From positions 1 through 26,980 of IMG/VR virus record IMGVR_UViG_3300032356_000010: a stretch of 26,980 bases of DNA; one strand, given 5' to 3'. Origin of the DNA: a virus. Every line of letters begins with the position of its first letter. Within the stretch, counting starts at the first letter, position 1. Below, piece after piece: positions 2,777 through 18,118 of this stretch. The notes beneath the pieces are model-generated. The model had not been told where the DNA came from, made no database searches, and saw nothing but the letters and a program-made list of their open reading frames with translations. The position numbers and the translations under genes are program-made.

Positions 2777-2777
2777 C

Positions 2778-3305: not shown

Positions 3306-4126
3306 CCGATCCTCCTTGCTCCGATCAGCGTGACCGGCACAACCGCAGGCAGCGTGTCCGCGTCCGTGTACCGGCTCATCCAGTCCAGCCGCAGGATGCC
3401 GTTGGCCGGGAAGAAGAGCGGCGAGGACGGGAAGCACGCCCATGGCCGGTGCGGACGCCATGCGAGGAACGATGACGGCACGAAATCGCTGGCCAGCTGG
3501 CGCGTCCCGCTCGAATCGTATGGCATCAGCAGCAGCTTGTTGGCGAGCAGGTCCGGTTCGCCCGCCAAAGCAAACCAGTCGTAGCCGTAGTTGTCCACCT
3601 CGACCCGGAGCTGCCGGGGAGCTTCCTCTTGCGTGAACCCGGGCGGGATATGGCTGTAGATGTTCACCGTCAGATCGTTGCGGATCTGGTAGGGGAAGTG
3701 CCGGAACTCCGCCGATGACTTCTGCTGATCGAGCATCGACCGCGCACGCCCTCCGGTGAACCGCTTCACGCCGTAAAAGCACAGTCGGCTGTAGTAGGCC
3801 TTCTGCGTTCCGGTGTAGTTGTGCGCCGCCCGCTGCACGTTCGACAGGTTGAACCGGATCTGCCCTGCGGGCGGATAGACGATCTCCGGCTGCACGAGCA
3901 GCGGCTGGCTGCCCGGGTGGATGAATCCGCGCGGCGTCACAGGGCGGCCCGAGCCGTCGTAGAAGTACAGCCCGCCGGAGCACACCAGGTTGATCCCGAA
4001 CACTGCACGCAGGCGGAACTCGGCGTCCCGGTCTACCGCGAGCGACAGTCCGTCGTAGCTCTGGCCGTTGGCCAGAACCGACGCATCGTAGACGTAGAAG
4101 AACGGCAGGTCGAAATAGTCTTCCAT
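3299..4126 (-). CDS. Beta-sandwich structural protein, largest of the local paralogous set
   Basis: 275 aa, with AGGAGGG ahead of the ATG. Residues about 30-125 carry the shared pattern: DAEFRLRAVFGIN, YFYDGSGRPVTPRGFI, VQPEIVYPPAGQIRFNL and SRLCFYGVKRF. These align with DFILRAVSVAS, FTDANGYALSNTLI, FPEVVFPKSSKISLN and FLLHGVMRA of the 4137-4565 product. A second strand-rich half (NDLTVNIYSHIPPG, LRVEVDNYGYDWFALAG, GILRLDWMSRYTD) may be a second copy or an added domain. Two stacked jelly rolls would fit a minor capsid, vertex or spike protein. No catalytic motif or membrane segment is seen. Function is inferred from context and duplication only. Confidence 0.62.
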   Translation of the reverse strand: MEDYFDLPFFYVYDASVLANGQSYDGLSLAVDRDAEFRLRAVFGINLVCSGGLYFYDGSGRPVTPRGFIHPGSQPLLVQPEIVYPPAGQIRFNLSNVQRAAHNYTGTQKAYYSRLCFYGVKRFTGGRARSMLDQQKSSAEFRHFPYQIRNDLTVNIYSHIPPGFTQEEAPRQLRVEVDNYGYDWFALAGEPDLLANKLLLMPYDSSGTRQLASDFVPSSFLAWRPHRPWACFPSSPLFFPANGILRLDWMSRYTDADTLPAVVPVTLIGARRIGC

Positions 4127-4136
4127 CGCCGCCCTC

Positions 4137-4565
4137 CTATCTCAGCGCCTGCGCCCGCATCACTCCATGCAGCAGGAACACCACCGTGTTGGCCGACGAT
4201 GTCAGGTTCAGGATGTTCAGGCTGATCTTGGACGACTTCGGGAAAACCACCTCGGGAAAGATCACGAACGGCACCGGGCTGTTGTTCGCCCCGAGGAAGG
4301 CGTAGTGGTTGATCAGCGTGTTCGACAGCGCGTAACCGTTGGCGTCGGTGAACTGCACGCTGAACGCGCCGGTGAACGACGCCACGCTCACCGCACGCAG
4401 GATGAAGTCGCCCTCATCGCTGAACTCGCTCGCCCTGTCGCGGATGAACTCGCTCGCGGCCAGATCCACCTGGATCCGGTGGAAGCGCGGAATGTCGATG
4501 TAGGCCTTGTCCTCGGCTTGGCCGAGGCCCCGGATGGCCGGTGGAGCGTAAGGGTTGTAGCGCAT
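4137..4565 (-). CDS. Single-domain beta-sandwich structural protein, paralogue of 3299-4126
   Basis: 142 aa, the most compact member of the paralogous set. After an N-terminal arm beginning MRYNPYAPPAIRGLG, it carries DFILRAVSVAS, FSVQFTDANGYALSN, a Gly-Asn loop, FPEVVFPKSSKISLNIL and VVFLLHGVMRAQ. The size suits a single jelly roll. It is translated next after the capsid-protein candidate, separated by a 71-base gap that contains a strong hairpin, so its level may differ from that of its upstream neighbour. GGAGATC precedes the ATG. I infer a minor capsid or spike subunit. Confidence 0.62.
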   Translation of the reverse strand: MRYNPYAPPAIRGLGQAEDKAYIDIPRFHRIQVDLAASEFIRDRASEFSDEGDFILRAVSVASFTGAFSVQFTDANGYALSNTLINHYAFLGANNSPVPFVIFPEVVFPKSSKISLNILNLTSSANTVVFLLHGVMRAQALR

Positions 4566-4636: not shown

Positions 4637-5248
4637 TCACTGGACGCCGCGAGCGTAGAAGCCGTCCAGCAGAACCACGATGGACAGGCCCGTGCCGCCG
4701 TTGGCAGAAGTGGTCAGGGTGACAGGGCCGCCCACCAGCTGCGCCCAGAACGTCATCTGGTTCTCGATGACGACGGGCAGCGCGAGCTTGTGCATGCCTT
4801 CGCGGTACGGCATGCCGTTGGTCCAGGTCGTGATGGTCGTGGTCGCCGCCGTGGTCGCGGCCACGCCGTTGACACCGGCTCCGGCAGCGTAGTACCACAG
4901 CGGACCGAGGTTGTAGGACTTCTGCCCGAGGTAGAACTCGAGCGCGAAGTTGTCGAGCACCGAGATGAGATCCGCCAGCAGCACGTTGGGCCGCCAGTAG
5001 ACGCGGATGCCGAACACGCTGAAGGCCTCCGGCGCGGGCAGACGCCGCGACTGGGTCATGTTGGTTTTGGCCTTGTTCTTGCCCGAGCTGGGGCCGACGT
5101 TGGTGAACCACTGCGCGTTCAGCTCGTTGACGCTATCGCCCGCGTTCCACGAGACGGTGTCGTACAGCGGAGTGTGCTGCACGTCCATCCGGTTCTCGAC
5201 GTAGACCTGCGACTGGAACGCGTCGAGGATGATCTGCTCATTCGCCAT
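4637..5248 (-). CDS. Candidate major capsid protein
   Basis: 203 aa. Strong ribosome binding site (GAAGGAGAAAGAAGC before ATG). It has strand-rich segments and no membrane helix: FGIRVYWRPNVLLADLI, FALEFYLGQKSYNLGPLWYY, an Ala/Thr/Gly loop, LALPVVIENQMTFWAQLV and a C-terminal LSIVVLLDGFYARGVQ. Reasons to propose a capsid role: size of a single-jelly-roll subunit, high-quality translation signal, isolation by hairpins on both sides (as for highly expressed capsid genes), the adjacent gene for a very basic nucleic-acid-binding-like protein, and surrounding structural genes. I do not recognise a named capsid family, and a decoration or tail-tube subunit remains possible. Confidence 0.5.
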   Translation of the reverse strand: MANEQIILDAFQSQVYVENRMDVQHTPLYDTVSWNAGDSVNELNAQWFTNVGPSSGKNKAKTNMTQSRRLPAPEAFSVFGIRVYWRPNVLLADLISVLDNFALEFYLGQKSYNLGPLWYYAAGAGVNGVAATTAATTTITTWTNGMPYREGMHKLALPVVIENQMTFWAQLVGGPVTLTTSANGGTGLSIVVLLDGFYARGVQ

Positions 5249-5265
5249 TGCTTCTTTCTCCTTCG

Positions 5266-5332: not shown

Positions 5333-5339
5333 TTGCAGA

Positions 5340-6083
5340 CTAGAACGCGGTGCCGAAGGCGCGGCTCAGACCGCTGGTGTTGACCCGCGTCTTGGCATCG
5401 GCGGGAGCCGGAAGAGCGATGGGCCGGATCGGGTTCTGCGGGATCGGGAACTGGCCCGGCACCAGAGCGCCGATGCCGAAGCCGTACTGCCGCAGCCCGG
5501 GCACGAAGGTGCTGATCGCCGTGGAGCCGACCAGCATCAATGCGCCGAACGGAACGCCGGCCTTGAATTCCCGCGCGGTTTCGCCGTTGCCGCCCATCTT
5601 GTCGGCAGCCCAGCTGACCAGCATGGCGCTGATGCCATCGCTCAGCAGCGGGGCGAACTGCCCGGCGAAGCCGAGCAGACCGGGCGGGATGATCTTCGAA
5701 ACCAGCCGCGTGGCGGCCACGCCGGTCAGACCGCCCAGCACCGCCGTGCCCTTCACTCCGCCGAACATCGGATTGCGGCGGCGGCGGCTGTAACGGCGGC
5801 GGTAGACGGCCAAGGCCGGATTCCGGCGGTACCGGCGGCGGTTGCGCCGGCGGCGCACCGGGGGAGCGATCAGGGAAACGAGCTTTCGCCGGGGATTCCG
5901 GCGGCGACGACGGGAACGAGCCATGGGATTCTTTCTCCTTTTCCTTCGGGGATTGACTGCGCCGAGCGTAAGCACGAGCGCGGGGTTGCGGCGCAGGATT
6001 CTCCTGCGCCTGATCGGATTCAGCCTGCGGCGAGCCTTCCTGCGCGGATTCGCCACTCGCCGCACCACTTTCACCACAGCCAT
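5340..6083 (-). CDS. Arg-rich RRNP-repeat protein with hydrophobic C-terminal half
   Basis: 247 aa from the ATG at 6083, preceded by AAAGGAGAACCAGA. The first ~110 residues are dominated by Arg with eight Asn-Pro dipeptides, mostly in the form RRNP/RKNP (for example RRLNPIRR, LRRNPAL, RRKNPMAR, RRRRRNPRRK, YRRNPAL, RRRRNPMF). The C-terminal half is Gly/Ala-rich with hydrophobic stretches (GTAVLGGLTGVAATRLV, LLSDGISAMLVSWAA, FGALMLVGSTAISTFVPG), which could be amphipathic or membrane-associated helices. The N-terminus should bind nucleic acid or another polyanion, so a genome-condensing core protein joined to a shell- or membrane-contacting domain is a reasonable inference. An in-frame ATG at 5924 also has an AGGAGA-like sequence upstream and could give a 194-aa form. 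Confidence 0.65.
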   Translation of the reverse strand: MAVVKVVRRVANPRRKARRRLNPIRRRRILRRNPALVLTLGAVNPRRKRRKNPMARSRRRRRNPRRKLVSLIAPPVRRRRNRRRYRRNPALAVYRRRYSRRRRNPMFGGVKGTAVLGGLTGVAATRLVSKIIPPGLLGFAGQFAPLLSDGISAMLVSWAADKMGGNGETAREFKAGVPFGALMLVGSTAISTFVPGLRQYGFGIGALVPGQFPIPQNPIRPIALPAPADAKTRVNTSGLSRAFGTAF

Positions 6084-6141
6084 TCTGGTTCTCCTTTCTG
6101 TGGTCTCCGCGCGATGGCGGATGTCAAGCATTCAGGGAGCA

Positions 6142-7497
6142 TCAGTTGACGATCCCCTCCCGCTTGATCTTGTACGAACCGCCGACCAGCTCGAGCTGTC
6201 TGTTGATCCGGTCGTAGACGACGGCGGGCTGGAATCCGCCCTCCTCGCCCAGCTCGTGCTCGTAGTCGATGGTTTCGAAATTGTCGAAGTCCTTCTCGGT
6301 GCGGTACACCAGCGTGTTCAGCACGCCGAGCAGCACCTTGTCCTTCTGCACGGCCTCCGTATCGCCGTCGAGGATCTGCGCCAGCGTCTCGTCGTCGATT
6401 GCCTGGTCGCCGCCGATGATGTACAGCTGGTTGCAGTCCGTGCTGGAGCACAGCAGCGGCTGATCGTCTTCGAACGCGATCCGGAACTTGACCTTCGCGG
6501 GCGAGGTCAGCGTCAGCTCCTCCAGAGCGCCGATGGCCGCCAGGTTTTCCCTCATGGCGACGGCCTCCTCGACGACGACCTCCTCCCCGCTCTCCCTGCC
6601 ATGGAAGGTCTCGTAGACCTTCTCGGCGTCCTCGTAGGCGTCCTTCAGCTCGGGTGCGTCCGCAGGCAGCTCCGACCAGGATTCCTCCACCGGCTCCTCT
6701 CCTTCGGGGTTCCGCTCCAGGCGGATCGACGGATTCTGCTGCGACTGCGCGGCATCGGGCGCGTCGTAGCCCCTCAGCGTGCCGTGATGCAGCGCGTAAT
6801 GCAGAGCATCGGCCAGAGGGTCCAGGTCGACGGAGTCGATGTAGCGGCTGTGGAAGCCCTCCCTCGGAGCGCCCCGGTGCAGCCGGTAAACCGGGCTTTC
6901 CGGCGTGCCCTCGGGCATCTCGGTCCAGATCGACAGCGCCAGGCCCAGCGCCGGATCGTACTTGTCCGCCCGCGCGGCGAAGAAGGCTCCCTTGCGGATA
7001 GGCACGCGGTGCTCCGGCTCCGTTGCGGGCGTCTCCTCCCAGGCGTCCTGCAGCTTCCGGAAGATGGTTTCCGCCAGGTAGCGGGACAATACGTCTTCTG
7101 TATCGCCTTCCGGGTTCCTCCGCCTGCCCTGCAGGCCGCGCTTCCGCAGCGATTCGCGGGTCGGGTAGGCGACCAGCTCGTAGCGCCCGCTGGGCATGCG
7201 GTAGACCGAGACGTGGACGAAGATGTTCGGATCCGACGTCGCCAGCAGCAAGCTCACCGTGCGGTCGTAGGGCACGGCGGTGTTGATGTAGTCGGCCATG
7301 CTCAAACCGGCCTGCGCCGCCGCGCGGTCCAGCAGGGAGTTGATCTCGGCCAGCGTCTCGAAGTAGCCCTTGCCGTGCCGGTCGAGGTAATCCATGATCT
7401 TGCGAACCTTGCGGTCCAGCTCGCGGCCCTCGCTGCTCGCCGGATTCTTCGCCGTGGGAACGCCGAGCCGACGGTAGAAGTCTTCCATTCTGCCCAT
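6142..7497 (-). CDS. Multidomain protein with basic-Asn-Pro linkers, unknown
   Basis: 451 aa; the start ATG overlaps the upstream TGA by one base. I do not recognise a family. The protein divides at Asn-Pro motifs: KNP at residues 17-19, RRRNP at 125-129 and ERNP at 261-264. Between them lie a mixed alpha/beta domain (helical hairpin 25-65, then strands NIFVHVSVYR and YELVAYP), a second domain with ALGLALSIWTEMP and HHGTLRGYD, and an acidic C-terminal region (about 265-310, rich in Glu) that leads into a last domain (VKFRIAFEDDQ, CSSTDCNQLYIIGGD, LVYRTEKDFDNFETIDYEHE). No membrane segment. The linker motif is shared with the neighbouring proteins and suggests common handling of these products. 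Confidence 0.6.
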   Translation of the reverse strand: MGRMEDFYRRLGVPTAKNPASSEGRELDRKVRKIMDYLDRHGKGYFETLAEINSLLDRAAAQAGLSMADYINTAVPYDRTVSLLLATSDPNIFVHVSVYRMPSGRYELVAYPTRESLRKRGLQGRRRNPEGDTEDVLSRYLAETIFRKLQDAWEETPATEPEHRVPIRKGAFFAARADKYDPALGLALSIWTEMPEGTPESPVYRLHRGAPREGFHSRYIDSVDLDPLADALHYALHHGTLRGYDAPDAAQSQQNPSIRLERNPEGEEPVEESWSELPADAPELKDAYEDAEKVYETFHGRESGEEVVVEEAVAMRENLAAIGALEELTLTSPAKVKFRIAFEDDQPLLCSSTDCNQLYIIGGDQAIDDETLAQILDGDTEAVQKDKVLLGVLNTLVYRTEKDFDNFETIDYEHELGEEGGFQPAVVYDRINRQLELVGGSYKIKREGIVN

Positions 7498-9295: not shown

Positions 9296-9826
9296 TCACT
9301 CTGCCGGAGCCGCCGGAGCGGGAGCCGGAGCCGGAGCCGGAGCCGCTGCCCGACGCCTGGATCGAATCAGCTCCACCGCACGCTGGCCAGCCGTCGAATG
9401 CTTCAGCCGCGCTTCCTGCAGGGCGCGGTAGTAGTCCGCCTTGGCCTGCAGTTTGGCCGCCTTGTAACCGGCGCGGTCCTTGCGCATGGTGATCAAAAAC
9501 AGAGCGCCGATGCCGATGACCAGCGCCCACTGCCCAAGCGTCCACCGCCCCGGGTTGGCCCACGAGGCCAATTCCGATCCCAGGTCGATTGCGCCAAGGC
9601 CCTGGATCACCGCTTTGCCCGACCGCTGGCCCGGCGGCAACCCGATGGTCGACAGCGCGTTGGCCAGCGGATTCTGCGGCAGCGTCCAGTTCGCGGCGAC
9701 CAGCTCGCCGACTCCGACCGTCCGCGCCACCGGCTGGCGCGGCTGGAACGGATTGTTCGGCACGACAAACCAGCCCGGGATCAGCTCCCCGAGGCCAGGC
9801 GCTGGATGAATGTTCAGGTGAGCCAT
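9296..9826 (-). CDS. Single-pass membrane protein with Ala-Pro tail, unknown
   Basis: 176 aa. An N-terminal region rich in Pro/Asn/Gly (GWFVVPNNPFQPRQP, NWTLPQNPLANAL) leads to a transmembrane helix at about 98-114 (LGQWALVIGIGALFLIT). A basic helix (MRKDRAGYKAAKLQAKADYY) and a C-terminal tail of alternating Ala-Pro follow. By the positive-inside rule the basic helix faces the cytoplasm or virion interior. The Pro-Ala tail is encoded by a GGAGCC-type tandem repeat. It is the last of the run of membrane proteins that begins at 16074. I infer a membrane-embedded virion or envelope-spanning component. Confidence 0.62.
   Translation of the reverse strand: MAHLNIHPAPGLGELIPGWFVVPNNPFQPRQPVARTVGVGELVAANWTLPQNPLANALSTIGLPPGQRSGKAVIQGLGAIDLGSELASWANPGRWTLGQWALVIGIGALFLITMRKDRAGYKAAKLQAKADYYRALQEARLKHSTAGQRAVELIRSRRRAAAPAPAPAPAPAAPAE
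9321..9345. repeat. GGAGCC tandem repeat
   Basis: About four copies of a 6-base unit inside the 9296-9826 gene. On the coding strand they encode the Ala-Pro dipeptide run near the C-terminus. The number of units could vary in frame by slippage. Confidence 0.7.
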
Positions 9827-9830
9827 AGCT

Positions 9831-10274
9831 TCATGCCCTCTTCGCCAAGATGATGACCGCCACCACTGCGGCGGCACCCACGACAAACCACAATCCCGGC
9901 CTGGACACGGCGTCCGCGACGGCCTCTCCGGCTTGGTAAACTCCGGACTGGAACTGGGCGATGCCGCCGGTCGCCTCCAGCCATGCATTGGTGAGCTGTT
10001 GCTGCTGCCGCCGAGTCTCCTGCGCCGATTCCTCCGGGTTCCATGACACCGGATTCCGAATCTGCTCCTCTGTCTTCGGCGCAGCGGGAGGCACAACGGG
10101 AACGCCCTTGCAGCCGATGCCGATCCACCTGCAGTGCCAAGGTTCTCCCATGTTGCACTCGTAGAGCGGACGCACTCCAATCGGCGTGGCGATGATCGAC
10201 GACCAGGTCCCCGTCGGGCACTTGGACGGATCGTCGACCACCTTCACCGTTACGGCTCCCAGTCCGATCATCAT
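9831..10274 (-). CDS. Tail-anchored small membrane protein with MMI N-terminus
   Basis: 147 aa from the ATG at 10274, which overlaps the upstream TGA (ATGA); a GTG three codons earlier is an alternative. It opens MMIGLGAVTVKVV, then has a small Cys region (DPSKCPTGT, LYECNMGEPWHC, GIGCKG) comparable to DPGECPLGT and VRYRC of the 13662-13946 protein. A linker contains IRNPVSWNPEE, then a Gln-rich helix. A C-terminal transmembrane segment (about 126-143, LWFVVGAAAVVAVIILA) ends in KRA. The bulk therefore lies on one side of a membrane with a three-residue tail on the other. Role in virion membrane or envelope complex inferred from the surrounding genes. Confidence 0.62.
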   Translation of the reverse strand: MMIGLGAVTVKVVDDPSKCPTGTWSSIIATPIGVRPLYECNMGEPWHCRWIGIGCKGVPVVPPAAPKTEEQIRNPVSWNPEESAQETRRQQQQLTNAWLEATGGIAQFQSGVYQAGEAVADAVSRPGLWFVVGAAAVVAVIILAKRA

Positions 10275-10606
10275 TGGACCCACTCCGCTTCCACAATCTC
10301 GGCCTTGCCATCGGCTGCGGTCACCGTCACTGCGGATCTGACGCAGCGAGCGCCTTTGCGGCTGCCAACCGCCTTCGGCTTCCGTCCCTTTGCCGTCTGC
10401 TGCATTCCCTTTGCCGTCTGCTGTTGTTGTCCCTCCGCCAGCGTCTGCACCGCGCGTCGCAGCCGGGGCGAGTCCAGCGGTTTCAGCATTTCACGCAGCT
10501 CCGGTTCGAACACCTGGTACACCGCTAGGCAGACAGGATCCCGGCTCGCGATCCGCTCGACGATGCCGAGCAGCAGCAGATCCAGGCGTCCTGTACGGTC
10601 AGCCAT
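10271..10606 (-). CDS. Small helical soluble protein with QQTAKG repeat
   Basis: 111 aa from ATG 10606, chosen because AGGTGA lies 5 bases upstream; a GTG at 10615 overlapping the previous stop is the alternative. It is one of only two genes without a membrane segment in the 9296-16074 stretch. The N-terminal half is helical (LDLLLLGIVERIAS, VYQVFEPELREML). The centre carries a duplicated QQTAKG (encoded by a direct DNA repeat at 10385-10402 and 10406-10423), then a basic stretch (KGRKPKAVGSRKGARC) and a C-terminal strand pair. The basic part could contact nucleic acid or lipid head groups. I do not recognise it. Confidence 0.55.
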   Translation of the reverse strand: MADRTGRLDLLLLGIVERIASRDPVCLAVYQVFEPELREMLKPLDSPRLRRAVQTLAEGQQQQTAKGMQQTAKGRKPKAVGSRKGARCVRSAVTVTAADGKAEIVEAEWVQ

Positions 10607-10611
10607 CGCGT

Positions 10612-10959
10612 TCACCTGTTGGCCAGAACCACTCCCAATACCGCTGCGCTGCCGATGACCACCCAGTTCGGCACGCCCTTGATGATGGTTTGCCCGGTCA
10701 GCGGGCTTTGCGGCGGGCTGGCCGTCCGCTTGATCCCGGCAGTCTCCAGCGGTTCAGGGCAATCCACCTCGAACAGCATGGTCGGATCGAGCATGCACAC
10801 ATTGAAACACTTGCCGTTCTCGGTGCTCTTCATGACCACCCACTGGGTGGCGTCCGTGCACGGACCGGTATAACGGTCAGTACCAGTGTCAGTAACAGTA
10901 GCAGTAGCAGTGTCAGTCAGGATCGCTCCCATGTCGCCAAGGCTAATCGGAATCATCAT
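10612..10959 (-). CDS. Tail-anchored small membrane protein with QSPLTGQ motif
   Basis: 115 aa; GGGAGGAAGCGAAG precedes the paired ATGATG. It opens MMIPISLGDMGAIL, then has a Thr-Asp-rich stretch (encoded by a 6-base-periodic repeat), a Cys-containing domain (TGPCTDATQWVVM, CFNVCM, FEVDCPEP), a linker with QSPLTGQ, and a C-terminal transmembrane helix (VPNWVVIGSAAVLGVVL) followed by only ANR. The QSPLTGQ block is identical in the 11127-11528 protein but encoded by different codons. Most of the protein is probably outside the cytoplasm or on the virion surface side, with the C-terminus buried. It overlaps the upstream gene by 17 bases. Confidence 0.62.
   Translation of the reverse strand: MMIPISLGDMGAILTDTATATVTDTGTDRYTGPCTDATQWVVMKSTENGKCFNVCMLDPTMLFEVDCPEPLETAGIKRTASPPQSPLTGQTIIKGVPNWVVIGSAAVLGVVLANR
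10876..10919. repeat. Short CAGT-type repeat inside a coding region
   Basis: Tandem, imperfect 6-base units (GTCAGT/AACAGT/AGCAGT). On the minus strand they encode the Thr-Asp/Ala-Thr run near the start of the 10612-10959 protein. In-frame unit, so copy-number change would alter only the length of the linker. Confidence 0.65.
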
Positions 10960-11113
10960 CTTCGCTTCCTCCCGAAAGCAGGATCAGCAGCAGCAACGCA
11001 GCGACCGCCAGCAGCAGCGGGTTGATCGAATCCTGCTGCTGCTGCTGCGGCTGGACATGCAGACTCCATCCCTCCGCTCCCGGCATGTTCGTCTGCGGCT
11101 GGCAAATCATCAT
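10943..11113 (-). CDS. 56-aa tail-anchored microprotein
   Basis: 56 aa: MMICQPQTNMPGAEG, a Gln run, then a long hydrophobic helix (INPLLLAVAALLLLILL) and a short, very acidic tail (GGSEDDDSD). The opening MMI matches three neighbours. TAGAGG from the upstream gene's stop lies about 10 bases before the start ATGATG. The small size and single helix recall the minor membrane proteins of membrane-containing phages and phage holins; the acidic rather than basic tail argues mildly against a classical holin. Its 3' end overlaps the next gene by 17 bases, implying coupled translation. Confidence 0.58.
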   Translation of the reverse strand: MMICQPQTNMPGAEGWSLHVQPQQQQQDSINPLLLAVAALLLLILLSGGSEDDDSD

Positions 11114-11126
11114 CGCGGCAAAACCT

Positions 11127-11528
11127 CTAGTCTGATGCGAGAAACAGACCCAATCCAATCGCGCCCGCGAGCAGCAGCATGCCGCCGGACGACGACGACT
11201 GCTGGCGCTGTGTGATGCTCGGCATATTCTGTCCGGTCAAAGGCGACTGCGCACCGGGTGTCCGCCACGCGCCGCCCGCCGCCTGCGCTCCGGTTTCCGG
11301 CAGCATGTAGCTCCACCAATCCGGCGGGTAGGCGTAGTCGATGTCCATATACGGCAAGCCGTAGCCCGATGTGTCTGAATACACATAATCCACTGGCTGC
11401 TGATGAAGCCTCCACCACTCGTAGCCGAAGTCGAAGTTCTCGTCGTAATCGGCGTCCTGAAGCGTGTAGCGGGACAGATCCGAGTAGACGTATTCGACTT
11501 GGCCCAGCGAGCCGGTGCGGATCATCAT
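11127..11528 (-). CDS. Tyr/Asp/Trp-rich tail-anchored protein with QSPLTGQ motif
   Basis: 133 aa; the ATG overlaps the upstream TGA (ATGA). After MMIRTGSLGQVEYV comes a region of about 60 residues dominated by Tyr, Asp and Trp (YVYSDLSRYTL, DENFDFGYEWW, YVYSDTSGYGLPY, DIDYAYPPDWWSYM), with an internal duplication of YVYSD-[LT]-S-[RG]-Y. A linker with QSPLTGQ and a Ser run leads to a C-terminal transmembrane helix (GGMLLLAGAIGLGLFL) and a three-residue tail ASD. The Tyr/Asp-rich part has little hydrophobic core, so it may be an extended adhesive or carbohydrate-binding arm. Composition differs sharply from the neighbours. Confidence 0.6.
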   Translation of the reverse strand: MMIRTGSLGQVEYVYSDLSRYTLQDADYDENFDFGYEWWRLHQQPVDYVYSDTSGYGLPYMDIDYAYPPDWWSYMLPETGAQAAGGAWRTPGAQSPLTGQNMPSITQRQQSSSSGGMLLLAGAIGLGLFLASD

Positions 11529-12019
11529 TGCCACGGCCTCCGGTACGCCTTGACGTAGCGCCACGTCATCCCGCTCATCCCGAGTTGGGACAGGTAGCCG
11601 TGGTACTCGCTCGCCGTCAGGCCCTGGTTGTCGGTCAGCCCGAAGCGCTCGCCGAGCACCGGCGCGTACTCCGCGCACGGAGGCGAGCACAAACCCGCTT
11701 CGATGGCCGCCTGCGCCCGGTAGTAGTTCCACGCGTGCCATCTGTAGCGCCACTCCCCGGTCAGCGACGCCTTCGACGGATCCAGCGCCGCCTGCTTGAG
11801 CACGTCATCCGGCGGCGGCGTGCCGACGCTTTCCGGCATCACGCCAGCAGCGTCGGCTGCAGGATTGCCGGTAGACGGAGCGCTGCTCCCGGTCGCCGGA
11901 GTCCCGCCGCCAGCCGCCGGTGTCCGCTGCTGGATCGCCAGCGTCGAGTTCGGCGTTCGCCGGTTGAGCAAGAGCAGCAGCACCGCCCCGCCGATCAGGA
12001 TCCAGCCCGCGTTGTTCAT
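11525..12019 (-). CDS. N-terminally anchored membrane protein with exposed C-terminal domain
   Basis: 164 aa with the opposite arrangement from its neighbours: MNNAGWILIGGAVLLLLL is an N-terminal signal-anchor followed by RR. A Pro/Ala/Thr/Ser linker (containing TPATGSS and APSTGNP) then leads to a C-terminal domain of about 90 residues (EWRYRWHAWNYYRAQAAIEA, CSPPCAEYAPVLGERFG, ASEYHGYLSQLGMSGMTW). The RR after the helix marks a cytoplasmic or interior side by the positive-inside rule, which would place the C-terminal domain inside; the short N-terminus makes this uncertain. Start overlaps the stop of the previous gene (ATGA). Confidence 0.6.
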   Translation of the reverse strand: MNNAGWILIGGAVLLLLLNRRTPNSTLAIQQRTPAAGGGTPATGSSAPSTGNPAADAAGVMPESVGTPPPDDVLKQAALDPSKASLTGEWRYRWHAWNYYRAQAAIEAGLCSPPCAEYAPVLGERFGLTDNQGLTASEYHGYLSQLGMSGMTWRYVKAYRRPWQ

Positions 12020-12468
12020 CGGTACAGCCTCCTCAACGGCTCAAAGTCATCCTTCCTGTTGTCATCCCGCAGCAGGAAGAACCAGACGGCGAGCGCGGCC
12101 AGAGCGAGCAGCAGCAGCTTGTTCCAGTCGGATGATGCAGCTGTCTGCACCGTCTGCGCAGTCCGGACTAGGACGCCGACGTCCTCGTGTCGGTAGACGT
12201 CCTCGGCAAGCACGTTTCCGCCGTAGAGCGCCTGCACCCGCACCTCATCTCCGGTCGCCAGCTGCTGCGGGAACGGCAGCCGCAAGCAGGTGGGCGTCGC
12301 CGGGCTGCCCGGACCCTCGTAAACCGCGCTGCCGCGAACGAACACCCGGAAGGTCACCTGCGACGGCTGAACGCCGGCAGTCGGCATGTAGCACGTCGAC
12401 AGGTAGCGCTCGGCTGTCGGCACGGTGGACAGCACGTTATGAGCCGAGACGATGCTTCCGGGTGCCAT
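12016..12468 (-). CDS. Tail-anchored beta-rich membrane protein
   Basis: 150 aa; GGAGG lies ahead of the ATG within the last codons of the upstream gene. Residues 1 to about 100 are beta-rich and include two cysteines (STCYMPTAG, TPTCLRLPF), SQVTFRVFVRGSAVY and GDEVRVQALYGGNVL, suggesting a small Ig-like domain exposed outside the cytoplasm. A C-terminal helix (NKLLLLALAALAVWFFLL) follows, then a 20-residue charged tail (RDDNRKDDFEPLRRLYR), the longest tail in the set. I infer a membrane-tethered spike or vertex-type subunit, or a component of an envelope-spanning complex. Confidence 0.6.
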   Translation of the reverse strand: MAPGSIVSAHNVLSTVPTAERYLSTCYMPTAGVQPSQVTFRVFVRGSAVYEGPGSPATPTCLRLPFPQQLATGDEVRVQALYGGNVLAEDVYRHEDVGVLVRTAQTVQTAASSDWNKLLLLALAALAVWFFLLRDDNRKDDFEPLRRLYR

Positions 12469-12471
12469 AAC

Positions 12472-13662
12472 CTACTTCCTCCCCCCGCCCGACATCGCAA
12501 ACAGCAGCGCCGCTGCGCCGCCGATCAGCAGCAGCATCGGGAGGCCGGTGCCGGCTGACTGGACGATGACTCCCGGCGTCTGGCCGCCGGTATCCGGAGT
12601 CCGGCTGCCGGGCTGAGGCGGCTGGTTCGCGGCGGGCAGCTCCGGCGTCTGCACACTGGCTCCAGGAATCTGTGTGCTGCTGCCAGGTGTCACGGTCACG
12701 TTGCCCGGCGGCTGCGACGGGTTCGCCAGCTCGAAGTCCAGCCTGCCGACAATCTCGCCGCCGACGTAGACGTTCTCCTGCCAGCGCCCGGCGTGCTCCG
12801 GCTGCCACGATCCGGAGATCTCGTAGTAGCCCTGAGCGTTGGTCGCGCCGTAGGCGGTCCTGCCATGGCTCTGGCCGTTCTGCCACGCCTCGATCTCCAC
12901 GGTTTGGTTCGGCAGGCCCCAGATCTTCAGCGTGAACCTGCCGCCAGTCTTGTAGCCGTCCGGCGCGAGCAACTGCACGTTGCGGCGGTAGGCGGTCGTG
13001 GTAGCGGCGGTGTTGGATGCCTGTGTCTGTGTCTGTGTCTGCGTCGCCGGTGCTGTCGCGTAGGCAAACTCCTGGGGCAACTGAACCTGAGCCGATGTGC
13101 CGGACGGCTGCACGAGCACGGACGTGTTGATCCCGGTGGAGTAGCCCTGCATCGGGGCGGCGTAGATGCCGAAAAGGTACGCGATATCGGATGCCTCTTC
13201 CTGCGGCGAGTTGTGGCGCACCGGGTTTCCGATGCTGGCATCCATGCTCTTGCCGTCCCTGGACAGCACAGCCTGGTACTGGAACAGACCGACGCAGCCC
13301 GCGCCGGGATCGCAGGACGAGCCGAGGATGTTGACCGAGAACCCGGCGCTCTGGAGCGCGGCCACCACGGCATCGGCATATTGCCTCGACTGCGCGAAGT
13401 AGATGTTGACCCACTGGGTCTTGGCCGCGAGATCCTGCACCGGATCGCCGAAGACGGATGGCGCGGGCGGAATCATCCCGCCCAGCCCGAGCAGGTAGCC
13501 GCGCACCTCGGGCATCCGCTGGCGGCCCCACTGCGGACTGCGGTTCTGCCTCGACCACTGGCTGCCGGGACGGAGCGCAGCCGCAGTCTGGCTTGGGCCA
13601 TATGCCGGACGCAGCGCCCAGCCCGGGTCTTCATCGAACTTTCCTTGCACGGGCAGCTGCAT
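12472..13662 (-). CDS. Large tail-anchored surface protein with Ig-like domain and PDTG motif
   Basis: 396 aa; AAAGGAGGAC within the upstream gene's end serves the ATG, which overlaps the upstream TGA. Residues about 75-205 form one domain (TQWVNIYFAQSRQYADAVV, FSVNILGSSCDPGAGCVG, DIAYLFGIYAAPMQGYST). A TQTQTQTQ run at about 207-214 leads to an Ig-like domain at 229-313 (FTLKIWGLPNQTVEIEAW, ATNAQGYYEISGSW, GRWQENVYVGGEIVG). A Pro/Thr/Gln-rich stalk containing TPDTGGQ at 355-361 is followed by a transmembrane helix at 374-390 and the tail SGGGRK. The Ig-like domain plus stalk plus C-terminal anchor is the layout of a membrane-tethered surface protein. No enzyme motif seen. Confidence 0.65.
   Translation of the reverse strand: MQLPVQGKFDEDPGWALRPAYGPSQTAAALRPGSQWSRQNRSPQWGRQRMPEVRGYLLGLGGMIPPAPSVFGDPVQDLAAKTQWVNIYFAQSRQYADAVVAALQSAGFSVNILGSSCDPGAGCVGLFQYQAVLSRDGKSMDASIGNPVRHNSPQEEASDIAYLFGIYAAPMQGYSTGINTSVLVQPSGTSAQVQLPQEFAYATAPATQTQTQTQASNTAATTTAYRRNVQLLAPDGYKTGGRFTLKIWGLPNQTVEIEAWQNGQSHGRTAYGATNAQGYYEISGSWQPEHAGRWQENVYVGGEIVGRLDFELANPSQPPGNVTVTPGSSTQIPGASVQTPELPAANQPPQPGSRTPDTGGQTPGVIVQSAGTGLPMLLLIGGAAALLFAMSGGGRK
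13021..13045. repeat. TGTGTC tandem repeat inside a coding region
   Basis: About four copies of a 6-base unit that, on the minus strand, encode alternating Thr-Gln in the linker between the two domains of the 12472-13662 protein. Confidence 0.7.
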
Positions 13663-13946
13663 CAGTCCTCCTTTCCGCCACTGAACAACCATAGCGCAGC
13701 CAGCGCCAGGCCGCCGATGAGAAGCCATCTCGGCGTGACGCCGAACCTCGCCAGCGCGGGCGATTCCGGAATGCATCGGTATCGGACCACCGTAATGGAT
13801 GTCGTGCCTGGCGCAGATCCCGGGTCGTAGATCTCCGCTTTCGTCCCCAGCGGGCATTCGCCGGGATCGGAGACGAGCTTCATGTCGCACGGGCAGGGCG
13901 GCGCGATGCATTGGCAATCCGCAGCGCCCAGTCGCACTATGGGCAT
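13662..13946 (-). CDS. Small Cys-rich tail-anchored protein
   Basis: 94 aa; two bases separate its ATG from the upstream stop. It opens MPIVRLGAADCQCIAPPCPC, continues with MKLVSDPGECPLGT and VRYRCIPESPALARFG, and ends with a transmembrane helix (PRWLLIGGLALAALWLF) and tail SGGKED. The six cysteines in the first ~58 residues suggest disulfides or metal binding on an exposed face. The DPGECPLGT-to-VRYRC segment resembles DPSKCPTGT-to-LYEC in the 9831-10274 protein, so the two are probably diverged relatives. The last codons (AAG GAG GAC) form the ribosome binding site of the following gene. Confidence 0.62.
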   Translation of the reverse strand: MPIVRLGAADCQCIAPPCPCDMKLVSDPGECPLGTKAEIYDPGSAPGTTSITVVRYRCIPESPALARFGVTPRWLLIGGLALAALWLFSGGKED

Positions 13947-13948
13947 GG

Positions 13949-14686
13949 CTAACCGTCCTCCTTCTTCATAAGCAGAAAGATCCCTGCGCCGGCCAGCAGC
14001 AGCGGCAGCAGCAGGCCGCTGCCGGACAACGGAACCAGAGCGCCGGTGACCGGATCGATGGTCGCATTCACAGGATCCGGGCGCGGCGCGTCCCTGGCGA
14101 TGGGGTCGCGGTACAGAGTGAAGTAGTCGCAACCGGTTCCCGTGGGGCACCACGGGGCGCTGCCGCCTCGCTGGCGCTCCTCGATGCACCGGCGGCCCGG
14201 GTCGCCGCCCACCGCCGCGCATCCCCGGATGATGTAATCCCACAGCGCGTCGAAGTTGGCCAGCGCCTGCCGCTGGCTGGAGACCGTGCGCGGCCCGTTC
14301 ATGTAGGCCTCCAGGTTCTCCTTCATCTTCGCCTCGGCCTCGTCTACCACTTTCGTCGCCTGCTCCTTGCGGATGTTGCTGATCCGGTTCCGCATGAGCC
14401 AGAAAGTGACCCCGGCCACCGCCGCCCCGATGACCGGGATTGCAATTGCTGCAGCGCTGCCGAACATGGCCGGTGCAGCCGCCGTCGCCGCAGCGCCCGC
14501 TGCGTTGACTGCGGTCACCGAGGGCGGAGCGCCGCTTGCCACGCCGGAGGCAAGGACGTTCGATGCGGCACCGGCGGCGCTCTGGTACGGGTTGTACCCG
14601 CCGGGGTAGCCGAGGATGACGACGTCGTCGACCGAGGGCGTGTAGCCGTCTCCGAGCGCCGCCAGTGCAGGATGGAGCATTGCCAT
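13949..14686 (-). CDS. Two-helix membrane protein with DPVTG motif
   Basis: 245 aa. Residues 1-75 are Ala/Gly/Ser-rich. A first hydrophobic helix at about 77-98 (AAIAIPVIGAAVAGVTFWLM) is followed by a basic-acidic helix (RNRISNIRKEQATKVVDEAE) and a conserved-looking central block (ANFDALWDYIIRGCAAVGG, DPGRRCIEERQRGG, CDYFTLYRDPI). A linker with DPVTGA at 211-216 precedes a second helix at 222-240 and the tail KKEDG. I have the impression of having seen the ANFDxxW / CIxxRQRGG / YRDPI pattern in environmental phages, where it is unassigned. Both ends probably lie on the same side or the first helix is amphipathic. A membrane-pore or penton-like role is conceivable but unproven. Confidence 0.62.
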   Translation of the reverse strand: MAMLHPALAALGDGYTPSVDDVVILGYPGGYNPYQSAAGAASNVLASGVASGAPPSVTAVNAAGAAATAAAPAMFGSAAAIAIPVIGAAVAGVTFWLMRNRISNIRKEQATKVVDEAEAKMKENLEAYMNGPRTVSSQRQALANFDALWDYIIRGCAAVGGDPGRRCIEERQRGGSAPWCPTGTGCDYFTLYRDPIARDAPRPDPVNATIDPVTGALVPLSGSGLLLPLLLAGAGIFLLMKKEDG

Positions 14687-14728
14687 GAGCCGCCTCAGAT
14701 CTCCAGTGCCATCGCCATTGCCGCCTGC

Positions 14729-15088
14729 TTACCGCAGCGGGAGAATCACCTTGAGATCCCCGCTCCTGGTGCGCTTGATCTTGGCCGTGACGTAGCGGTT
14801 GGTCGGAATCGGGTTCTTCTTCCGCTTGGTCGCTTCCTTCAGCGCCGATTCCGCCCGCTTCCTCGCGCCGGACGCGGTCTTCAGGGTCGTCCGGGCCTTG
14901 CGGCTGGCCTTGGCGATCTGCGCCGCCCGCTTGGCCTTCGACTTCGCGCCACGGCTGCCAGCCTTGGTTTTGTACTGGGCCGATTCGCCGACCCGGTCCG
15001 GGTCGTAGTCTCCGGAGGCGCGGATCGGATGGAAGACTCCGTTGCCGTCGTAGTAACCGGCGGCGATATTCTTCACTCGCAGTGGCAT
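14729..15088 (-). CDS. Small basic soluble protein with RKKNP linker
   Basis: 119 aa; GAAGGAGACTGACCC precedes the ATG. An N-terminal beta segment (MPLRVKNIAAGYYDGNGVFH, PIRASGDYDPDRVGE) leads to a Lys/Arg/Ala-rich helix (SKAKRAAQIAKASRKARTTL and on to ALKEATK). RKKNP then introduces a C-terminal strand pair (NRYVTAKIKRTRSGDLKVIL). I believe I have seen the 'AAGYYD-G-FHPIRAS-DYDP' opening in other uncultured-virus proteins. It has no membrane segment. The basic helix is likely to bind DNA, RNA or acidic lipid. Only 42 bases separate it from the next gene. Confidence 0.6.
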   Translation of the reverse strand: MPLRVKNIAAGYYDGNGVFHPIRASGDYDPDRVGESAQYKTKAGSRGAKSKAKRAAQIAKASRKARTTLKTASGARKRAESALKEATKRKKNPIPTNRYVTAKIKRTRSGDLKVILPLR

Positions 15089-15091
15089 GGG

Positions 15092-15400
15092 TCAGTCTCC
15101 TTCTCCTCGAAGCAAAAGAAACAGCGCGACGCCGCCCAGCAGCAGAAGCGATAATCCGGAGAAGCTGCTCCCGATGACGCGCTCCGGAGTAGATGGCTGA
15201 GATGGCAGCACCGCGCCCGGCGTGCCGGGTCCGGTCTGGTAAATCCGCGTTCCGCCAGCGCCTGTCTCCATGACCAGCGGCTGGTTCTGGTTCAGCAGGA
15301 TCTGCTGGCCGGTCTTGCTCCAGCCCTGGGTGATGGACTGGAACCAGTCGGTCCAGCTGCCCGACAGTCCGTTGCAGCATGGCTTGGCGGAGTACATCAT
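15092..15400 (-). CDS. Tail-anchored small membrane protein
   Basis: 102 aa; the ribosome binding site GGAGATAG is formed by the last codons of the transglutaminase-like gene, 9 bases ahead of the ATG. It opens MMYSAKPCCNG, has an aromatic helix (WTDWFQSITQGWSK), a Pro/Thr/Gly/Gln stalk (LVMETGAGGTRIYQTGPGT) and a C-terminal transmembrane helix (FSGLSLLLLGGVALFLLL) with tail RGEGD. The last codons contain GGAGAAGGAGAC, which acts as the ribosome binding site of the next gene. A membrane-anchored virion or envelope component by context. Confidence 0.6.
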   Translation of the reverse strand: MMYSAKPCCNGLSGSWTDWFQSITQGWSKTGQQILLNQNQPLVMETGAGGTRIYQTGPGTPGAVLPSQPSTPERVIGSSFSGLSLLLLGGVALFLLLRGEGD

Positions 15401-15405
15401 GGCGG

Positions 15406-16074
15406 CTATCTCCTCGACATCAGGACGGCGGCTCCGATCACGCCCAGCGCGATCAGGCCCGGTCGGATCTTGTCAATATCCAGGTTGAGGACCACGGGCT
15501 TGCGGATCGGCCACTCCGTCCTGCGGTAGACGCCTTGCACCTCCCACCCGGCGTAGGGTCCGTGGCTGGCGTCGATGGGAAACCTCTTTCCGTCGCGGTA
15601 GCTGGCGACGTAAACATGGCTGAACTGGGCCGGGTCGCGCTCGTCGGCGGCCACGGTGACATAGCTTGCCTGGATTCCCTGGGCGAGCAGCATGGACGCG
15701 GCGAGCATGGAGTAGTCGTCGCAGTCGCCCTGCGCCACCGGCACCGGCAGCGCGAGCAGGTCGCGGGGCCGGATCAGGGTTTCGACGATGTAGTCCTTGT
15801 ACCAGCGTTGGAACGGCTGGCTGAGGGCCTCATCATTGACGAACCGGATCCTGGCCCGGATGAAGCGGTAGATCTGTTCCTCGGGAGTCAGCCCAGGATA
15901 CATCCGCTGCGCCGCGGCGACGGCTTGCCGGACTTCCGGCGACTCGCTGTCCTCGGCGGCGTACTTCGACATCAAGCCGATGACGGCAGACGTCTGGCTG
16001 TCGCCGTACTCGGGGACCGGCGACAAGTCGTACCTCACCTTGCCGAAGCCGGGCAAGAAGGCGGTGCCGGGCAT
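15406..16074 (-). CDS. Membrane-anchored transglutaminase-fold cysteine enzyme
   Basis: 222 aa, first gene of the long minus-strand unit. A complete papain/transglutaminase-like triad is visible: C118 in VAQGDCDDYSML, H153 in QFSHVYVASY, D168 in RFPIDASHGPY. The helix carrying the cysteine and the spacing to His and Asp match the transglutaminase-like core. An N-terminal helical region (EVRQAVAAAQRMYPGLTPEE, YRFIRARIRF) precedes it and a single C-terminal helix (PGLIALGVIGAAVLM) ends in SRR. Family members are mostly proteases or amidases; true Gln-Lys cross-linkers exist. Cleavage or cross-linking of the neighbouring anchored proteins is an attractive inference. The start has no clear Shine-Dalgarno sequence; TTAAAAT lies just upstream, so the message could be nearly leaderless. 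Longer in-frame starts run back through the control region and are unlikely. Confidence 0.75.
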   Translation of the reverse strand: MPGTAFLPGFGKVRYDLSPVPEYGDSQTSAVIGLMSKYAAEDSESPEVRQAVAAAQRMYPGLTPEEQIYRFIRARIRFVNDEALSQPFQRWYKDYIVETLIRPRDLLALPVPVAQGDCDDYSMLAASMLLAQGIQASYVTVAADERDPAQFSHVYVASYRDGKRFPIDASHGPYAGWEVQGVYRRTEWPIRKPVVLNLDIDKIRPGLIALGVIGAAVLMSRR

Positions 16075-16222
16075 CTGCGGCGATTTTAACCGAAAATGCG
16101 AAAAACCCGCGCTAGGTACTCTATACAGTTTACTGTATACTATGCTCGAAGCAGGGAATTCCTGATTCCTGTCAGGCCTAATTAGGCAGATTCCCTGCCG
16201 AGTGCCTACGCCGAGGTGTATG
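16075..16222. promoter_or_regulatory. Divergent control region with nested palindromes
   Basis: The only sizeable divergent gap in the window and clearly more AT-rich than its surroundings. It holds: TATACAG-TTTA-CTGTATA (16122-16139, 7-bp arms); CCTGA/TCAGG arms (16161-16165, 16172-16176); a perfect 12-bp palindrome GCCTAATTAGGC (16176-16187); and GCAGGGAAT/ATTCCCTGC arms (16151-16159, 16190-16198) that enclose the last two. TATACT (16136-16141) could be a -10 element for the plus-strand unit, and TTAAAAT (complement of 16083-16089) one for the minus-strand unit. No convincing -35 elements are seen. The first palindrome would overlap the plus-strand -10, as an operator would. Confidence 0.6.
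16151..16198. repeat. Nested inverted repeat, potential cruciform or leader hairpin
   Basis: Outer arms of 9 bp (16151-16159 and 16190-16198) enclose a 5-bp-arm hairpin (16161-16176) and a 12-bp perfect palindrome (16176-16187) that share one base. If transcribed to the right it would fold in the leader of the 16223 gene. As DNA it could be a multimeric repressor site, a partition or replication-origin element, or a site for the ParB-like protein encoded at 21609-22373. Confidence 0.55.
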
Positions 16223-18118
16223 ATGCCCGATGCGAAACGAGCGCCAGAACCGGCCCCGCCGCCCGATCCGGCGGAGGCTATCCTGTTGGAACAACTGGAA
16301 AAGCAGCGCGAGCAGGAAGCCCAGCTGATCACCGAGGAGCAGGAGCAGGAAGAGGAGCAGAAGAAGGAAGTTCCTCCTCCGGTTCCGACCAACAAAGACT
16401 TGCGGAGGAAAAAAGCCAGGCTTATGCGCGGCCTGGACGAGGAGCAGAAGCTCCGGCCCCCGCTGAAGCTGTTTCCGGCCCCGTTCACAATGAACTTCCA
16501 CCCGGACCACAAGGATGCCCGGGGCCGTCCGCCCGCCTTCTGGGACTACTGGAAGCAGGTTTACGATGACCCGGCGCTGCGGGACCGCGTGGTCGTCTAC
16601 ATCTACCGGCTGTGGCCGGTCATGATCGACGGCAAGCGGCAGGTCACCAAAGCCTTCGCACCGTTCCCCTACGAAGACCTGCTGAAGCTTTACGGTTGCG
16701 GCGACTACTTCCTGAAGCTCAACGACGCCGCCGCCAACAAGAAGATGCGGCGCACCATCTGCAACTGCAAGGTGGCGATGGTCGGAAACTACAACCTGAC
16801 GGAGTACCCGCCGTTGCTGGACGTCGAAGGACTGGACGTCTCCAACCCGCACAACGAGCGGTACATCCTGTGGTGCGAGAGCCGGGGCATCAAGATCCCC
16901 GGCAAAGAGGAAGAGGCCAGGAAACAACAACAGCAGCAGAAAAAGAGCGAGGAGGACGATGTGTCCGAAGTAACCAGGATCCTGCTGGATCAGTACACGC
17001 AGCTCACCAACCGCATGATGCGGGACGACAACGGCGGCAAGAAGGCGGCGGTCGATCCGACGATGGCCGCCGTCGCGCCCATGGTCGCCGTCATCAAGAC
17101 GGCCACCGAAGGAGCCAACCAGATCATGCAGAAAGCCTACGAGCGGACTGCGCAGTTGCAGCAGCAGCAGCAGAACCCCACCAAGGCGATCACGGAAACC
17201 GTCACCGCTCTCAAGGAGCTGCTGCCGCAGAACGACGCCAACGCCTCCAAGATGGTGACCAGCTACCTGGAGGCGATGAAGGAGATGTCGAACGCCATCA
17301 CCAAGGTGAACAGCGAGTACGTCGATCGCATGGTGCAGATGACCAACCAGCGGCTGCACAGCCACGAGGAGCAGATGAAGGCGCTGCTCGAGGCCATCGC
17401 CAAGCGGCAGGAAGCGGCTCCCGCAGCCGCATCGGCAGCCGGACAATCGCAGTCGCTCAAGGACATGCTGCGCGAGATGGCCGAGTTCAGGGATCAGATG
17501 CGCGAGGTGCTGGGGGTCGATGACGACAAGCCGGCAAAGAGCAGCGGCTGGGCCGAGTACCTGCCGGACATTCTGAAAGCCGTCACTGTGCTCGGAACCA
17601 CCATCGCTGCAGCGATGCATAACTTCGCGGTCGCCAAGACCGGCCAAGGCCAGCCCTTGCCGGTGCAGCCGATGACTCCCTCGGCGGCACCTCCTCCGCC
17701 ACCGCCGGTGCAGGCGTCCGCAGAACAGCCAACACAGGAGCAGCAGCCTGACATGATGGCCCAATACCATAACCTGTTGTCGATGCTCAGGCCAAGCCTG
17801 CTGAAGTCGTTCATGGACGGGGAAAGCGGGGCCGATTACGCCGAGCGCCTCATCGAGCTGACCGATGCAGGCCTGTTCGGACCGACCTACAGCGGACGCC
17901 AGATCTATGACGCGATTCTCGAAGCGGGCGAGCTGAGCGTATCAACCGTGATCAAGACTTTCCCGCCAATCTGGGACGTGGTGAAGCAGACCCCGCAAAA
18001 GTGGGAGCGCTTCCTGCACGAGTTCTTCACGGCGGACGAGATCTGGGCGAAGGAGGACGCGGAAGCAGAGCAGCAGGCGATGCCGCATCCGGCTCTGGAC
18101 CGGAAAAAGAAAAACTGA
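16223..18118 (+). CDS. Large Q-rich coiled-coil protein with one globular domain, unknown
   Basis: 631 aa from ATG 16223 (GAGGTG at 16213-16218 gives good spacing; GTG 16202 and ATG 16220 are alternatives). Layout: acidic, Glu/Gln-rich helix (about 18-45); a globular domain at about 75-215 (AFWDYWKQVYDDPALRDRVV, YIYRLWPVMID, YEDLLKLYGCGDYFLKLND, CNCKVAMVGNYNLTEYPP); a long Gln/Met-rich helical region (about 235-430); a hydrophobic patch (ILKAVTVLGTTIAAAMHNFA); a Pro-rich linker; and a C-terminal helical domain (AQYHNLLSMLRPSLLKSFMD, YAERLIELTDAGLFGPTYSG, WERFLHEFFTADEIW). 'YGCGDYFLKL' recalls a 'YGGG-Y-L-L' strand I associate with other uncultured-virus proteins. First gene of its operon. A scaffold, tape-like or DNA-organising role is possible. 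Confidence 0.6.
   Translation: MPDAKRAPEPAPPPDPAEAILLEQLEKQREQEAQLITEEQEQEEEQKKEVPPPVPTNKDLRRKKARLMRGLDEEQKLRPPLKLFPAPFTMNFHPDHKDARGRPPAFWDYWKQVYDDPALRDRVVVYIYRLWPVMIDGKRQVTKAFAPFPYEDLLKLYGCGDYFLKLNDAAANKKMRRTICNCKVAMVGNYNLTEYPPLLDVEGLDVSNPHNERYILWCESRGIKIPGKEEEARKQQQQQKKSEEDDVSEVTRILLDQYTQLTNRMMRDDNGGKKAAVDPTMAAVAPMVAVIKTATEGANQIMQKAYERTAQLQQQQQNPTKAITETVTALKELLPQNDANASKMVTSYLEAMKEMSNAITKVNSEYVDRMVQMTNQRLHSHEEQMKALLEAIAKRQEAAPAAASAAGQSQSLKDMLREMAEFRDQMREVLGVDDDKPAKSSGWAEYLPDILKAVTVLGTTIAAAMHNFAVAKTGQGQPLPVQPMTPSAAPPPPPPVQASAEQPTQEQQPDMMAQYHNLLSMLRPSLLKSFMDGESGADYAERLIELTDAGLFGPTYSGRQIYDAILEAGELSVSTVIKTFPPIWDVVKQTPQKWERFLHEFFTADEIWAKEDAEAEQQAMPHPALDRKKKN

Follow-up and report, generated by a model that had tools for sequence, protein, structure and literature searches.

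The phage SSIP-1 lacks a tail, contains a membrane, has capsid proteins of two types and is almost without relatives (PMC6356626; PMC5332951), and according to a 2019 review its genome has hardly any similarity to GenBank entries (PMC6356626). Its gp40 is a predicted packaging ATPase (PMC4124505). Described in 2012 and unclassified, it has a circular genome of 43.8 kb and an internal membrane, and its capsid proteins are placed in the vertical single beta-barrel group. Other tailless viruses with an internal membrane include Sulfolobus polyhedral virus 1 (SPV1), HCIV-1, HHIV-2, SH1 and P23-77 (PMC8459092; PMC5332951). Here we consider a 26,980-nucleotide stretch of viral DNA (IMG/VR record IMGVR_UViG_3300032356_000010, positions 1 to 26,980; the window), in which 14 consecutive minus-strand genes, g13-g26 (9296-16074), form an array whose products mostly carry a predicted membrane helix. 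We put the probability at about 0.85 that these are virion proteins associated with the internal membrane of a tailless bacteriophage with a large (44-62 kb), probably circular genome, from a lineage distantly related to SSIP-1. Support comes from an array far above that of controls, synteny in 14 genomes, jelly-roll models of capsid genes, homology between g26 and SSIP-1 gp34, and the lack of any terminase or portal match.

The membrane protein array

Genes g13-g26 were re-called from the window sequence, and a membrane helix was called where the Kyte-Doolittle (>=1.5) and Wimley-White octanol scales jointly supported it over 19 residues. Twelve of the 14 consecutive genes encode such a helix, as an earlier note on this DNA had judged by eye, and the count is reproduced by the two hydropathy scales; g15 and g24 have no helix. 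The helix forms the C-terminal end in nine, with tails of 2-9 residues (Table 1) where the earlier note had given nine with tails of 2-10, and it is internal in g13 and N-terminal in g19, again as described. The single long-tailed protein, g20, was also recovered, with a tail of 17 residues rather than 20. A second, internal helix accompanies the C-terminal one in g23. The weakest helix of the array, that of g26 (Kyte-Doolittle 1.51, octanol +1.5), is clearer in the relatives G001 and G004.

Residue-shuffled versions of g13-g26 (2000 trials) gave a mean of 0.27 C-terminal helices and a maximum of 3, against the 9 observed, and a mean of 2.8 helices of any kind with a maximum of 8, against 12. 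Thirty-two other viral loci (801 genes), chosen via SNF2 helicase, held five proteins with a C-terminal anchor (C-tail proteins) in total and at most one per 14 consecutive genes. Phage lambda has none, and the membrane-containing P23-77 and PM2 have up to 4 and up to 3 per 14. Four relatives checked have 7-8 C-tail proteins per 14 array genes, compared with 9 in the window.

The exposed domains had been described as unrelated, and in sequence they are: the soluble parts of 178 C-tail proteins from 16 records fell into 96 clusters. Among the domain types named at that time, only the transglutaminase fold was confirmed. The motif G[LMF]G occurs within the first 70 residues of 60 of 177 C-tail proteins, about threefold the 18.5 found in shuffles, and after clustering in 29 of 96 clusters (9.1 expected); other proteins show a small excess (70 of 979, 56 expected). 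The motif may mark a site of maturation or serve in docking, a role put forward as a hypothesis because the motif was noticed during exploration. The string QSPLTGQ precedes the helix in both g16 and g18, which are otherwise unrelated.

Related genomes

The window is an entire IMG/VR record yet a fragment, with no terminal repeat. Searching with the g08 protein returned 29 viral loci, nearly all 87 to 35% identical across most of the length. Nothing convincing turned up among 50,697 phage and 72,556 plasmid records, in which the g26 protein likewise gave nothing useful. We read 14 related IMG/VR records, 41-62 kb long, from end to end. Eleven carry direct terminal repeats (52-253 bases, often 97-127; 97-100% identical), as circular assemblies do, and are apparently complete; a genome size of 44-62 kb is therefore likely. 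The order g27(reverse)-g26-g23-g19-g13-g10-g09-g08-g07/g06-g05-g03 is kept, with small gaps, in essentially all 14 genomes, and in all of them the array sits within the virion gene block, beside the jelly-roll capsid genes. Wherever g27 is present (13 of 14 genomes), its strand is opposite to that of g08. A host clue is given by a single 3.6-kb contig in a Methylophilaceae metagenome-assembled genome, which is too little to name the host.

The lineage genomes are apparently circular, with genes for ParB-like proteins and integrases, features that would also suit a non-viral mobile element (a plasmid or vesicle-making element) with capsid-like genes. We find this explanation scarcely credible, given that no plasmid record matched and that the relatives keep capsid, fibre-like and lysis-type genes as a set. 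No earlier description of the lineage was found in the literature searched, and the best reading is that it is undescribed and of family or higher rank, with the qualifier that it is a distant cousin of SSIP-1 and not of PRD1, PM2 or FLiP.

Capsid genes

Among the structural genes g08 is the most conserved. An AlphaFold2 model of it made from 14 sequences (predicted local distance difference test, pLDDT, 75.7) was compared with solved structures (VIA). The best match was SPV1 VP4 (Z 9.2, root-mean-square deviation 3.2, 133 aligned), followed by HCIV-1, HHIV-2 and SH1 (Z 7.4-7.6) and P23-77 VP17 (Z 7.2). Because unrelated enzymes (PHM) score up to Z 7.0, only the SPV1 match rises clearly over the background, although it adds weight that capsid proteins fill the top of the list. 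Against the predicted viral structures of BFVD, the model ranked I1ZBH9 first (211 aa, E 1.8e-4, TM 0.49) and I1ZBI0 (256 aa) fifth. Judging by lengths and consecutive numbers, these would be SSIP-1 gp46 and gp47, both annotated as structural. The likeness is structural only, with no sequence homology between the g08 family and gp46 or gp47 (hhalign probabilities of 2.2% and 0.3%), and the g08-family profile found nothing useful among PDB sequences. These comparisons suggest that g08 is the major capsid protein, with a predicted vertical single jelly roll.

The g06 model (pLDDT 86.9) has two jelly-roll domains and matches SPV1 VP4, I1ZBI0 and double-jelly-roll capsid proteins. g06 and g07 belong to one hidden Markov model (HMM) family, found at 26 loci and in 13 of the 14 related genomes, with g06 a duplication of the g07 type. 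In the vertical single jelly-roll group two major capsid proteins form pseudohexamers; here g06 and g07 are additional jelly-roll proteins adjoining g08. Of the fold models, made for g08 and g06, both are jelly rolls and neither is HK97-like.

The link to SSIP-1 and other membrane viruses

The g26 protein matches Pfam Transglut_core/DUF553 above cut-off and aligns with SSIP-1 gp34 (hhalign, 96.8%, E 3e-10), which is annotated as structural and has a transglutaminase fold (Pfam) and a C-terminal anchor. By eye, the fold's Cys, His and Asp lie in GDCDDYS, SHVYV and DASHG in g26 and its relatives, and in DCDG, DHVYV and DPT in gp34. This was the sole homology among the 1165 hhalign comparisons made between lineage gene families and SSIP-1 proteins. 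The 57 annotated genes of SSIP-1 include those of C-tail proteins gp4, gp30, gp34, gp39, gp50, gp53 and gp54; gp54 (transglycosylase SLT, weak match) and an SLT protein of the relative G006 are both C-tail anchored, and G004 encodes a likely C-tail-anchored peptidoglycan hydrolase.

SSIP-1 is like the lineage in its large genome, in its C-tail-anchored proteins, including the transglutaminase-fold virion protein gp34 and the transglycosylase gp54, in a capsid fold like that predicted for g08, and in being tailless with an internal membrane, as is predicted for the lineage. It is unlike the lineage in gene order and, outside the g26/gp34 pair, in sequence. It also encodes a DNA primase, a methyltransferase of great length and, in gp40 (AAA_25, with a structural annotation), a predicted packaging ATPase, whereas the lineage encodes a family A polymerase. 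SPV1 (Portogloboviridae), the best solved fold match of both g08 and g06, has an internal membrane, a circular dsDNA genome, proteins that span both membrane and capsid, and no packaging ATPase among its assigned functions. However, it is archaeal (Saccharolobus host) and gave no sequence match, and Portogloboviridae have genomes of about 20 kb (20 kb in SPV1) with no recognisable DNA polymerase, compared with 44-62 kb and a family A DNA polymerase here. A further mark of Portogloboviridae is the nucleoprotein VP1 with DNA in the A form. P23-77, Simuloviridae and Sphaerolipoviridae share the capsid fold and internal membrane, and C-tail proteins of P23-77 adjoin its capsid genes, but P23-77 and Simuloviridae have genomes of 16-19 kb and a packaging ATPase is present in the vertical single jelly-roll group. 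PM2 (Corticoviridae) and PRD1 (Tectiviridae) likewise have an internal membrane and many small virion membrane proteins, but have a double jelly-roll capsid protein, genomes of 10-15 kb and a dedicated packaging ATPase. Where the earlier note recognised no homologues in membrane viruses, one has now emerged for g26 in gp34, and the g08 model has a fold like capsid proteins of SPV1 and P23-77; kinship to PRD1, PM2 or FLiP did not emerge.

The array proteins are diverse in their domains, and the host envelope could also be their place of action. They would then form an organelle for exit or delivery (pyramid or secretion-like), outside the virion of a tailless, lipid-free jelly-roll virus. Archaeal viruses are known to build exit structures from membrane proteins. 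We regard this reading as very improbable: SSIP-1 gp34, homologous to g26, bears the annotation of a virion structural protein, the nearest capsid folds are those of internal-membrane viruses, the array is embedded in the virion gene block of every genome, and the C-tail genes of PM2 and P23-77 are mostly in the structural block. The delivery or exit organelle offered as an alternative in the earlier note is unneeded by this evidence; the array may well include delivery proteins.

Terminase, portal and tail genes

The terminase large subunit PF03237, found in nine control genomes, had no match in the 14 related records even at E<=1, and the single portal family used, PF04860, matched none of them. 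A PHROGs scan of nearly all G001 and G004 proteins returned replication genes, with no head-tail cassette or terminase among the 25 best families. An alternative is that these viruses are tailed phages with terminase, portal and tail genes diverged beyond recognition, the array being unusual tail or host-takeover membrane proteins. It finds some support in g01, which matches PHROG families of unknown function, and in one G004 protein that matches a tape-measure PHROG. That match covers 78 of the 197 residues of a C-tail protein that also has an endolysin-family match; it was traced to a lysozyme-like stretch and rejected as a tail gene. Taken with the empty terminase and portal profiles, a capsid gene modelled as a jelly roll rather than HK97-like, and the lack of C-tail proteins in lambda, this makes a tailed phage very improbable. 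The earlier note named a standard portal, terminase and tail cassette as evidence against a membrane virion; neither the terminase nor the portal profile matched in the 14 records (11 apparently complete), and the best PHROGs families of G001 and G004 include no tail cassette. These negatives, the jelly roll predicted for g08 and the kinship with SSIP-1 favour the internal-membrane virion of an undescribed lineage that was first suggested.

DNA packaging

None of the 14 genomes has an FtsK-type PF01580 match above cut-off. HerA-like DUF87 proteins of two unlike types occur in three (G010, G014 and G016); those of G010 (39072-40133 and 40454-40825) and G016 (33950-35077) lie on the strand opposite the capsid gene, about 7-11 kb away. 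As a packaging ATPase, DUF87 was set aside for its presence in 3 of 14 genomes only, in two types, one duplicated and truncated (G010). In complete genomes, a P-loop scan gave only replication-type or MoxR proteins. The commonest, AAA_24 (Sak4-like), was weighed as a packaging candidate because AAA_25, to which SSIP-1 gp40 belongs, is in the same broad superfamily; it is missing from at least 4 of 14 genomes and located among replication genes, and was set aside too. With no FtsK and patchy DUF87 and AAA_24, the lineage has no recognisable universal packaging motor, and the ATPase looked for in flanking DNA did not appear in any form common to the 14 genomes. Either a very divergent motor has been overlooked, or some other mechanism condenses the DNA and encloses it.

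The product of g09, the gene upstream of g08, has a conserved hydrophobic part and, in the window and several relatives, an N-terminus rich in Arg; it is probably a membrane protein that contacts or condenses DNA. The motif [KR]NP has 12 copies in seven proteins of the window, against 1.7 by shuffling; it is strongest in g09, also present in g10, g11, g12, g24 and the helicase, and weak or absent in some relatives. A general sorting signal was rejected, as the enrichment is limited to some genomes and largely due to g09. It is possible, though doubtful, that 44-62 kb of dsDNA is packaged with no dedicated motor, by g09 condensation in a growing shell, while g26 matures membrane-anchored virion proteins at the N-terminal G[LMF]G, in a new high-rank lineage.

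A model of the virion and its assembly

In an internal-membrane phage of this kind, most array proteins, which probably have no N-terminal signal, would insert by their C-terminal helix after synthesis, and the soluble domain would therefore stay on the cytoplasmic side. In the manner of PRD1-type assembly, a shell of g08 with g06/g07 would form over the cytoplasmic side of a patch of membrane, and the soluble domains would come to lie between this membrane and the capsid. In that space they may tether the membrane to the capsid and carry enzymes (g26; the peptidoglycan hydrolase in relatives) used as the membrane delivers the genome, while the Arg-rich g09 would contact or condense DNA.

Several points weigh against this model. 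The lineage is known from genes alone, with virion composition, lipid and topology as predictions, and the array helices are predicted from hydropathy. The g08 model is of moderate confidence, and its Z of 9.2 is modestly above the 7-8 typical for models with no clear relatives. The identity of I1ZBH9 with gp46 is taken from length and numbering, and the sequence link to SSIP-1 consists of g26, a member of a widespread superfamily. Finally, the search for a HerA/FtsK packaging ATPase, which most PRD1-type viruses have, gave none that is universal in the lineage.

Other genes of the window and its relatives

The features of the window are listed in Table 1. Relatives carry extra copies of g03, which recurs there as a domain of larger fibre-like proteins, and in G001 a further g01 homologue adjoins the g01 counterpart. 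A VPGxFVVPQNP-type motif is common to g13 and g09. The window also encodes a DUF7227 protein with a Cys-rich motif (7497-8714; Pfam 5.6e-14), which few lineage members have, and two adjacent proteins with similar ends (22565-23188 and 23200-23865; FPNEVALAELAV / YPNEVALAELAI), like which G001 has a tandem run of genes (10915-13461). A DUF2201 metallopeptidase/VWA protein is encoded in the window (24287-25846) and in G001 (5079-6170), where a MoxR-type AAA ATPase partners it, giving a MoxR-VWA pair in a phage genome. In G001, a uracil-DNA glycosylase domain is fused to the 3'-5' exonuclease-like part of a family A polymerase (445-1980), separate from the polymerase gene itself (2475-3884). Among PHROG families, a G004 protein (L101:2820-4160) matches those of a polymerase (1.8e-23) and a reverse transcriptase (5e-9).

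Table 1. Features of the window, with their occurrence among the 14 related genomes
Gene	Position	Strand	Description	Genomes
g01	464..1474	-	probable receptor-binding/fibre-like virion protein; PHROG 2448/6368, function unknown	
g03	1897..2430	-	beta-rich conserved virion protein	14/14
g05	2778..3305	-	beta-rich, probable capsid/vertex part; fixed position	14/14
g06	3299..4126	-	two tandem jelly-roll domains, probable second capsid or vertex protein	
g07	4137..4565	-	single-domain g06 relative, probable capsid/penton protein	
g08	4637..5248	-	predicted major capsid protein, vertical single jelly roll	14/14
g09	5340..6083	-	Arg-rich N-terminus and hydrophobic C-terminal part; probable major membrane/DNA-contact protein	14/14 (HMM also picks up g13-like proteins)
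g10	6142..7497	-	conserved protein of the virion module, function unknown	14/14
g13	9296..9826	-	internal membrane helix	14/14
g14	9831..10274	-	C-terminal anchor, tail 3	
g15	10271..10606	-	no helix	
g16	10612..10959	-	C-terminal anchor, tail 2	
g17	10943..11113	-	56 aa, C-terminal anchor, tail 9	
g18	11127..11528	-	Tyr/Asp-rich, C-terminal anchor, tail 2	
g19	11525..12019	-	N-terminal anchor	14/14
g20	12016..12468	-	near-C-terminal anchor, tail 17	
g21	12472..13665	-	~397 aa, C-terminal anchor, tail 6	
g22	13662..13946	-	Cys-rich, C-terminal anchor, tail 6	
g23	13949..14686	-	internal helix and C-terminal anchor, tail 5; two-helix layout kept in relatives	14/14
g24	14729..15088	-	basic protein, no helix	
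g25	15092..15400	-	C-terminal anchor, tail 5	
g26	15406..16074	-	predicted transglutaminase-fold cysteine hydrolase, C-terminal anchor, tail 2	12/14
g27	16202..18118	+	coiled-coil-like conserved protein bordering the array	13/14

Significance

The evidence supports an apparently undescribed lineage of large, distantly SSIP-1-like, tailless internal-membrane phages with no universal packaging ATPase. Phage collections miss this group, as the 50,697 phage records gave no match. Its genomes are about 3-4 times the size of those of PRD1 or P23-77 and encode their own DNA polymerase. As no packaging ATPase is shared, how such viruses fill their shell becomes a directly testable question. SSIP-1 has stood nearly alone since 2012. 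The genomes described here, at least 14 in number with 11 apparently complete, now reveal a diverse group of large tailless membrane phages.

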